64,000 bases of DNA from an uncultured Candidatus Saccharibacteria bacterium (GTDB lineage Bacteria; Patescibacteriota; Saccharimonadia; Saccharimonadales; Saccharimonadaceae): positions 1 to 64,000 of the forward strand of contig CALLZM010000006.1 in the NCBI GenBank assembly GCA_937858705.1, in the 5' to 3' direction. How positions within the stretch are numbered: position 1 is the stretch's first letter; each line of letters opens with the position of its first letter. A model generated the notes under the pieces. The model searched no databases. It saw nothing but the letters and a program-made list of their open reading frames with translations, and was not told the DNA's origin. The translations under genes and the position numbers were made by a program. Shown piece by piece: positions 49,839 through 51,881 of this stretch.

Positions 49839-50531
49839 CTACAAAAATGAAACATCTTGCGCCACCCAAGATGTACCGTTATGAATAAAATGTGTGTGCA
49901 CTTGCCCTGGTGTGCCAGCTGGTCCGTGAGCAGCAGCAACCGAATGGAACGCAATGTCATCGTAGGTCATGCCGTTCGTCGCAGTTGATGAGTTGGTGCC
50001 AAACCGCAGTTCGTCTATCGCCGAATCGTTCAGCGTTGTCGTCGCTGTGCCAAGCGAATTTTCAGTATCGCCGCTAAAGAGCGACAGATTCACACTCGTG
50101 CCATTGACCACCAACTCAAAGCGAATGGGCTTGTTCAGCGGCAGTGCTGTCCCACCCGTCCAACGCACCACTCCTGCACCGTCATCGCGGATGCGGGCGA
50201 CTCCGGCTGTCGTCAGACGCACCGACCATTTGTCGCCAGAGCCACTTGCTTGCCCCTTGGCAAGCGTTATTTCTGCATCAGGATAGCCGCCCAGGGTCAG
50301 ATACCATCGTACAGTGTAGGTTGTGAGGGGCGTCCCGTGGAGCGGCCACCAATGAACTCGTTTAATAGCAGCTGCATCTGGCAAACGAATGCGCGGTGCC
50401 CTACCGCCGCTGTTCTCAATCGTCAAACTGCCGACGATACTCGAAAATACCGTATCGCCCGGACCCGCCGAGCTGGTCGTCAGAGTTGTCGGGCTCAGCC
50501 CATCACCACTCCATGTTCGTATAATCGCCAT
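49839..50531 (-). CDS. Appendage-like protein of the collagen cassette
   Basis: 230 aa from ATG 50531 (longer frame overlaps the collagen gene). It begins MAIIRTWSGDGLSPTTLTTSSAGPGDT; the central part (about 50-190) is predicted concanavalin-like beta sandwich, and the end VHTHFIHNGTSWVAQDVSFL looks like a phage tail or fibre terminus. It lies between the collagen-like and GH16 genes with four- to ten-base gaps. Exact role unknown. Confidence 0.68.
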   Translation of the reverse strand: MAIIRTWSGDGLSPTTLTTSSAGPGDTVFSSIVGSLTIENSGGRAPRIRLPDAAAIKRVHWWPLHGTPLTTYTVRWYLTLGGYPDAEITLAKGQASGSGDKWSVRLTTAGVARIRDDGAGVVRWTGGTALPLNKPIRFELVVNGTSVNLSLFSGDTENSLGTATTTLNDSAIDELRFGTNSSTATNGMTYDDIAFHSVAAAHGPAGTPGQVHTHFIHNGTSWVAQDVSFL

Positions 50532-51384: not shown

Positions 51385-51443
51385 GATGGTTGGTTGCTCC
51401 TTTTCGTTGGTTGGGTGATATCTTATTGCTAGTGCTTGATATC

Positions 51444-51474
51444 ATGGTACCCCCCCCCCTGGTGGATTTGTCAA
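51444..51474 (-). promoter_or_regulatory. Candidate phase-variable promoter with a G10 tract in the spacer
   Basis: On the minus strand TTGACA (51474-51469) and TACCAT (51449-51444) are separated by 19 bases, of which ten are a continuous G tract (51459-51450). Seventeen is optimal, so eight G would be on, and changes by slippage would tune output. The transcript would begin near 51437 and lead into the collagen-like gene. Confidence 0.6.
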
Positions 51475-51492: not shown

Positions 51493-51523
51493 CAGCTGCT
51501 CTAGGCCTGGCCTAGAGCAGCTG
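51493..51523. repeat. 31-bp near-perfect palindrome between divergent promoters
   Basis: CAGCTGCTCTAGGCC and GGCCTAGAGCAGCTG arms surround a single T. It is 20 bp upstream of the -35 of the collagen cassette and about 25 bp before the ArsR promoter, with no T run on either side. It may be an operator, a cruciform site or a terminator that insulates the two units. Confidence 0.6.
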
Positions 51524-51581
51524 AGAATCTCTTCGCAATCATTTATATTGAAATATCTAAATATATCGATATAATATACTT

Positions 51582-51881
51582 ATGACCAACCAACGAGTAG
51601 TCATTTTAAAAGCATTAGCCGACGAGACACGACTCGGCATACTTGCCGCTATAGTCGCCCAAAATACCGCCGTATCGGGGTGCGACATCGTGGCAAGCTG
51701 CCAGTCAATATCTCGCCTATCGCAGCCGGTGCTCAGCCATCACTTTTCTAAGCTCGTCGACGCGGGTATTTTACTAGAAGAGAAGCATGGCGCAAGCAAA
51801 TCATACCGGCATAATGCCCCGCTACTCGCAAAAGTTGGGATAGATATTACAAAACTTATTTCTTTACAGAAGGAGAAATGA
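51582..51881 (+). CDS. ArsR-family transcriptional regulator
   Basis: 99 aa winged helix (LKALADETRLGILAAIV, VLSHHFSKLVDAGILLEEKHG). No cysteine pair in the recognition helix, so metal sensing of the ArsR/SmtB type is not obvious; Cys in SGCDIVASCQS may act as a redox sensor. ATG follows TATAAT (51570-51575) by exactly six bases. A TATATCGATATA palindrome (51562-51573) covers the -10. The flavoreductase gene follows by four bases, so the pair forms a small regulated operon. Confidence 0.9.
   Translation: MTNQRVVILKALADETRLGILAAIVAQNTAVSGCDIVASCQSISRLSQPVLSHHFSKLVDAGILLEEKHGASKSYRHNAPLLAKVGIDITKLISLQKEK

Follow-up and report, generated by a model that had tools for sequence, protein, structure and literature searches.

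In the hif pilus genes of Haemophilus influenzae, a TA repeat in the promoter region, reportedly described by van Ham in 1993, is said to bring about transcriptional phase variation. Homopolymers are known from other promoters. In Neisseria meningitidis porA, a poly-G tract lies between the -35 and -10 hexamers, and expression is high with 11 G, 2-fold lower with 10 G and 13-fold lower with 9 G (PMC3639595); in Bordetella pertussis, the length of a promoter C-stretch tunes several fimbrial subunit genes, fim2, fim3 and fimX (PMC1891110). Here we analyzed a stretch of 64,000 nucleotides (the window; positions 1 to 64,000 of contig CALLZM010000006.1) from an uncultured Candidatus Saccharibacteria bacterium, in which the promoter of an operon beginning with a collagen-like gene and ending with a glycoside hydrolase family 16 (GH16)-like gene contains ten consecutive G in its spacer. 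Our analysis suggests that this G10 is quite probably the variable part of a promoter belonging to a porA-type phase-variation system, in which slippage would act on the transcription of multiple genes.

The locus resembles porA in having a G homopolymer in the spacer (9-11 G in porA), and differs from it in the phylum concerned, in the many promoters of one genome that have a common layout, in its pilin-like and collagen-like targets, and in being known here from sequence alone. As in the Bordetella fim genes, a homopolymer occurs in the promoters of several pilus-type genes, although the tract here has a consensus TTGACA upstream of it, with no activator implied. In contrast to hif, with its dinucleotide repeat and divergent promoters, the repeat is mononucleotide G and serves a single direction.

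On the minus strand, TTGACA and TACCAT are separated by exactly 19 bases that include the G10 tract, and both this arrangement and its coordinates agreed with the original prediction (Table 1). The homopolymer is thus within the range of porA-type promoters, taken as at least about 8 identical bases between -35 and -10. A scan of the full 64 kb showed no other G/C run of at least 9 bases; shuffled versions of the window gave a mean of 0.12 overlapping matches, and the observed 2 were reached in 3 of 100 shuffles. Our promoter scan accepted spacers of 16-18 bases only, and the 19-base window promoter was hence unlisted. TACCAT is identical to TATAAT at four of six positions, and its assignment as the -10 is supported because the paralogous promoters have TATACT or TACACT at exactly that spot.

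The tight coupling of tract and -10 element was also evident among relatives, which were searched with the pattern TTGACA-N7..10-G8, containing no -10, in 15 tract-rich genomes and then in 380 genomes of the phylum. A TAnnnT hexamer started at the first base past the tract in 41 of 45 distinct loci (other listed offsets, 0-5), which means that the tract extends through the spacer as far as the -10. Across the 15 tract-rich genomes the reversed-pattern control matched twice, and across the 380 not at all. In these relatives the tract was 8-12 bases long and began 5-10 bases from TTGACA, most often 9 (22 of 45 loci), and in the window's own genome both the fixed 9-base distance and the abutting TAnnnT were found in six of seven loci. 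The design extends to genome G052 of another genus, where a homologue of the collagen-like window gene (locus L226) is preceded by TTGACA-acttcgcca-G10-TAAACT, and to the Saccharibacteria record RGIG5782 (L126), where TTGACA-7-G9-TATAAT precedes a gene whose start is signal-peptide-like.

The window locus is not an isolated case. The genome that carries it (910 kb, 31 contigs) contains 35 distinct G/C runs of at least 9 bases, against 0-3 expected from simulations (order-2 and order-3 Markov models, long tracts masked in training). Over 351 kb of sequence surrounding all tracts of at least 9 bases, run lengths were bimodal, with 157 runs of 5 bases, 18 of 6, 3 of 7, 2 of 8, 16 of 9, 12 of 10, 4 of 11 and one each of 12, 13 and 14; A/T runs in the same 351 kb did not exceed 8. 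The second peak may well be the product of selection for long runs. By a simple gene finder, which makes the split approximate, about 17 tracts precede genes, and about 18 are within or close to coding sequence. Many of those in front of genes share one layout, namely TTGACA, 8-9 bases, G9-G12, TATACT, a short leader and a start codon, and a second layout with TGC between tract and -10 occurs at C6:251131, C21:56114 and C20:15021 (contig:position). The genome would appear to have about a dozen promoters of this type, or more, the window locus among them, mainly before pilin-like and collagen-like genes.

Type IV pilin-like genes are the clearest targets of this genome-wide set, which the original prediction had missed. 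The genome has 27 pilin-like genes (PF07963), and nine tracts are found directly upstream of genes of this kind, where 0.16 would be expected (P about 1e-13). The shared layout precedes pilin-like genes on C26/C28 and C30 and at C31:2340 and C2:40398, and the collagen-like paralogue at C16:3231. Cultured Saccharibacteria depend on type IV pili for normal binding to the host and for twitching (PMC12206443). In the tract-free genomes G001 and G002, the upstream regions of pilin genes had no tract and were too few for reconstruction of an ancestral promoter. At L053:5160-5169 (C23) and L047:5215-5223 (C14), the tracts that separate divergent or consecutive pilin genes are partly C-oriented relative to the gene, which is suggestive of a poly-C version of this switch. 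All four collagen-like paralogues of the genome, including the window gene, have a G-rich tract in the promoter: G10 in the window, G10 on C16 (C16:3231), G8 at the start of C31, and the interrupted tract GGAGGGGGGG at 281 kb on C6 (L044). A further locus (L046:4901-4914, contig C9) has G14 straight after a promoter-like TTGACG and running into collagen-like N-terminal coding sequence, with no leader or start, and is possibly a truncated or rearranged collagen-like paralogue.

Sequencing or assembly could in principle have made or mis-sized such tracts, and some contigs do end at them with overlaps of 55 bases, as is typical of a k=55 graph; moreover, a metagenome assembly gives the precise number of bases in a tract as a majority call only. 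An artefact of this kind appears extremely improbable, given that flanking by TTGACA and a -10 is far above chance, that particular gene families are targeted, and that the assemblies are independent. Two viral-contig scans (2.9 million contigs) contained none, which speaks against an artefact if similar pipelines are assumed, and which also led us to reject a phage origin. Nor did we accept the ending of contigs at tracts as a sign of mixed tract lengths. In the window's genome (G000), the pairs C26/C28 and C7/C31 have exact 55-base overlaps across the tract, C28 following C26 and C31 following C7, and the shared piece begins 3 bases outside the tract, which indicates a repeat or substitution fork rather than a length variant.

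Length differences were instead sought between promoters within single genomes, each species being represented by one genome. In G052, two loci with unlike upstream DNA have a common core, TTGACATCTCCAAT-Gn-TATCATAG, in which the run is 12 G in one and 13 G in the other, and are identical from there as far as the contig ends. In G274, the run is 8, 9, 10 and 10 G long in four promoters that otherwise read TTGACAYGCGCRTGA-Gn-TATACT. Tract length therefore differs between paralogous cores at otherwise fixed spacing. These differences bear on the idea that poly-G is a fixed functional part of the spacer, through stiff or A-like geometry, a protein site or a non-template G-quadruplex, and that its length is no switch. 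Such a static role would fit the very constant position of the tract relative to the -10 and the existence of tract-free promoters in the same genome. It is nevertheless unlikely, and rather clearly so, since lengths of 8 to 14 occur with the remaining spacer positions fixed, even among near-identical cores of one genome, and since a promoter role leaves the tracts in coding regions unexplained.

Mononucleotide runs of this length are unstable in general, and more so without MutS. The mutS gene (MutS1) was found in 0 of 151 genomes of the family, with 11 of 14 control genomes positive. In porA the switching rate goes up on mutS loss (PMC3639595), and such instability also argues against a static spacer. 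Loss of MutS as the cause of tract richness was rejected: MutS1 was undetected in tract-rich and tract-poor genomes alike, so its absence permits the tracts and does not explain them. The same results bear on mutational drift, by which G runs would build up without mismatch repair and persist where they do little harm, promoters included. The family-wide failure to detect MutS and the wide variation in tract number among genera are in its favor, yet most genomes of the family also lack MutS and are tract-free, A/T runs stop at 8, and neither the exact abutment to the -10, nor the constant distance from TTGACA, nor the pilin enrichment would be expected. We regard drift as very improbable. The recurrent layout, the lock to the -10, the length differences and the undetected MutS together bear out the prediction that this poly-G, lying in a real promoter spacer, is a strong candidate for phase variation.

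Spacer lengths also indicate how the switch may be set. Among tract-free TTGACA promoters of this genome, 11 have a spacer of 17 bases, 3 of 16, 4 of 18 and 1 of 19, a peak that matches the 17-base optimum assumed beforehand, whereas the tract promoters have spacers of 18-20. Pooled with the relatives over the range 16-20, a 17-base spacer occurs in 3 of 44 tract promoters versus 14 of 26 tract-free ones (Fisher P about 2e-5). On one reading, the assemblies would mostly record reduced states. The predicted reduced output of the present promoter is plausible in view of the 17-base peak; on another reading, 19 bases may not be a low state, since poly-G DNA, with a shorter rise per base, may move the optimum to 18-19.

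In the mechanism that we favor, TTGACA and the nine following spacer bases would stay fixed in a sigma-70-type promoter whose -10 abuts the tract. DNA polymerase slippage on the mononucleotide run would add or remove G, each step shifting the distance between -35 and -10 by one base and thereby turning transcription of the collagen-like/GH16-like operon up or down. With tracts in promoters and in coding sequences, a population would become a random mixture of expression states. We infer the slippage within the population, the change in expression and the benefit, which would lie in varied pili or adhesins on a host cell. Several observations weigh against this interpretation. TACCAT is weaker than the -10 hexamers of the paralogous promoters. 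The paralogue with the interrupted tract (L044) still has a spacer of 19 bases, which could mean that 19 is simply a tolerated length, as a static spacer would also have it. The comparisons between paralogous promoters are not time-series evidence of switching. Finally, the window's two congeners have no tracts of 9 or more, so the feature would have been gained or lost quickly.

Table 1. Features of the window promoter, the operon it precedes and the divergent neighbor (window positions).
Feature	Position	Strand	Remark
-35 hexamer TTGACA	51469..51474	-	perfect consensus; read from sequence
Fixed spacer part aatccacca, 9 bases	51460..51468	-	read from sequence
G10 homopolymer, GGGGGGGGGG	51450..51459	-	C10 on + strand; inside promoter spacer
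-10 hexamer TACCAT	51444..51449	-	directly abuts G10 tract; TATACT or TACACT in paralogues
Predicted 5' leader	51385..51443	-	AAGGAG ribosome-binding-like sequence
Collagen-like protein, 282 residues	50536..51384	-	Pfam Collagen PF01391, E 2.7e-25
Second operon gene, 230 residues from ATG 50531	49839..50531	-	no family match
Third operon gene, GH16-like, 279 residues	48990..49829	-	EIDVVE motif; weak laminarinase similarity
Perfect inverted repeat	51493..51523	.	15-nt arms with a 1-nt gap; close upstream of -35
Divergent promoter-like TTGAAA-16-TATAAT	51548..51575	+	for ArsR-type gene
ArsR-family helix-turn-helix regulator, 99 residues	51582..51881	+	divergent neighbor; Pfam HTH_5, 2.9e-6

The three genes downstream of the promoter are real open reading frames in an operon-like arrangement. 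The first encodes Gly-X-Y triple-helix repeats and a conserved N-terminus, MPRLPxPGKDxGQWGxILNDYL. In the third, EIDVVE would correspond to the GH16 catalytic motif ExDxxE; its best laminarinase match in a phmmer search of PDB was weak (4.2e-5), and no Pfam match was found at 0.01. No hydrophobic N-terminal stretch or secretion-type N-terminus was found in any of the three proteins, and surface cassette is therefore a putative designation for the operon. An LPXTG-anchored collagen-like adhesin (SclA/SclB, Lcl) was rejected, with model scores of 79-94 against curated cut-offs of 325-500 and the repeats alone matched; phage tail-fibre families were similarly matched through the repeats only, and we make no claim of a prophage.

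The operon might instead be governed mainly by the divergent ArsR-type regulator, acting through the 31-base palindrome, with the tract of minor importance at this locus. The perfect inverted repeat between the divergent promoters, the adjoining ArsR helix-turn-helix gene and the degenerate -10 would all be consistent with such control, although C16, the paralogue at 281 kb on C6 and the G052 homologue have the tract with no such palindrome in the upstream sequence inspected, and we consider this explanation unlikely. The palindrome, of which no second copy was present among the loci fetched, could be the operator of the ArsR-type regulator, a guess from its position, and would then add a second layer of control to tract-length switching. 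The sequence CCAACCAACGA occurs near the translation starts of both divergent genes, at 51404-51414 and 51586-51596.

Tracts in coding sequence involve other kinds of genes. Reverse-transcriptase-like genes (RVT_1) on contigs C6 and C27 contain tracts at L037:8912-8924 (G13) and L031:14696-14706 (G11); the L037 frame is split at G13 and the L031 frame ends just past G11, and frameshift switching at these tracts is possible, as judged from the reading frames. At L039:4516-4524 one frame terminates at a coding-region G9, which is immediately followed by the start of the best downstream frame, an arrangement that looks like a frameshift-off state. Further G9 tracts lie inside intact genes (L036:5080-5088, L042:5099-5107, L040:5590-5598, L029:5673 and L051:5093), including those for an autoinducer-synthase-like protein, a family 2 glycosyltransferase and a GDSL lipase-like protein.

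The distribution of the tracts is uneven within the family and extends beyond it. Across genera of the 151 family genomes, the number of tracts of at least 9 bases per genome is strongly bimodal, 0 versus 20-96, with 52, 96 and 56 tracts in three genomes of one genus and 0 in many other genera. The design also occurs far beyond this phylum: TTGACA, a short stretch, G8-G13 and TATANT were found in at least 118 stretches, mostly of gut Clostridia and Bacilli, through a pattern that forced a spacer of 16-17 in nearly all matches and thus neither represents lengths such as those of the window's genome nor allows spacer-length statistics. The matches listed (L097-L176), from many phyla, also included Streptococcus, Streptobacillus and one named Saccharibacterium, often before signal-peptide-like starts. 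The promoters of these gut Clostridia and Bacilli, Streptococcus and Streptobacillus likewise have a short fixed stretch between TTGACA and the tract, and uniqueness to Saccharibacteria is ruled out. We found no paper describing this cross-phylum set of promoters. In agreement with the original prediction, our literature search, which had subscription papers and preprints outside its scope, found no report of such a phase-variation switch in Saccharibacteria or Patescibacteria. The mechanism would be the one already known from porA; its interest lies in the group of organisms, in how many promoters have one design in common, and in the pilin targets.

The bacterium that carries the window is probably parasitic, and the size and gene content of its genome fit Saccharibacteria. 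Beyond this locus, we lean towards the view that, in some host-attached ultrasmall bacteria of this phylum, a single promoter design (TTGACA, 9 bases, a variable G run and TATACT) stands before many type IV pilin and collagen-like genes and would give each cell a random combination of attachment factors, and that this design was gained or expanded in only some genera of a family with no detectable mismatch repair. The occurrence of the design in many assemblies of gut Clostridia and Bacilli suggests that it is perhaps underestimated in general. If the proposed switching is true, single consensus genomes would conceal variation in expression, mixtures of tract lengths would be predicted in metagenome reads, and the tracts would provide these bacteria with a simple means of varying attachment in a very small genome.
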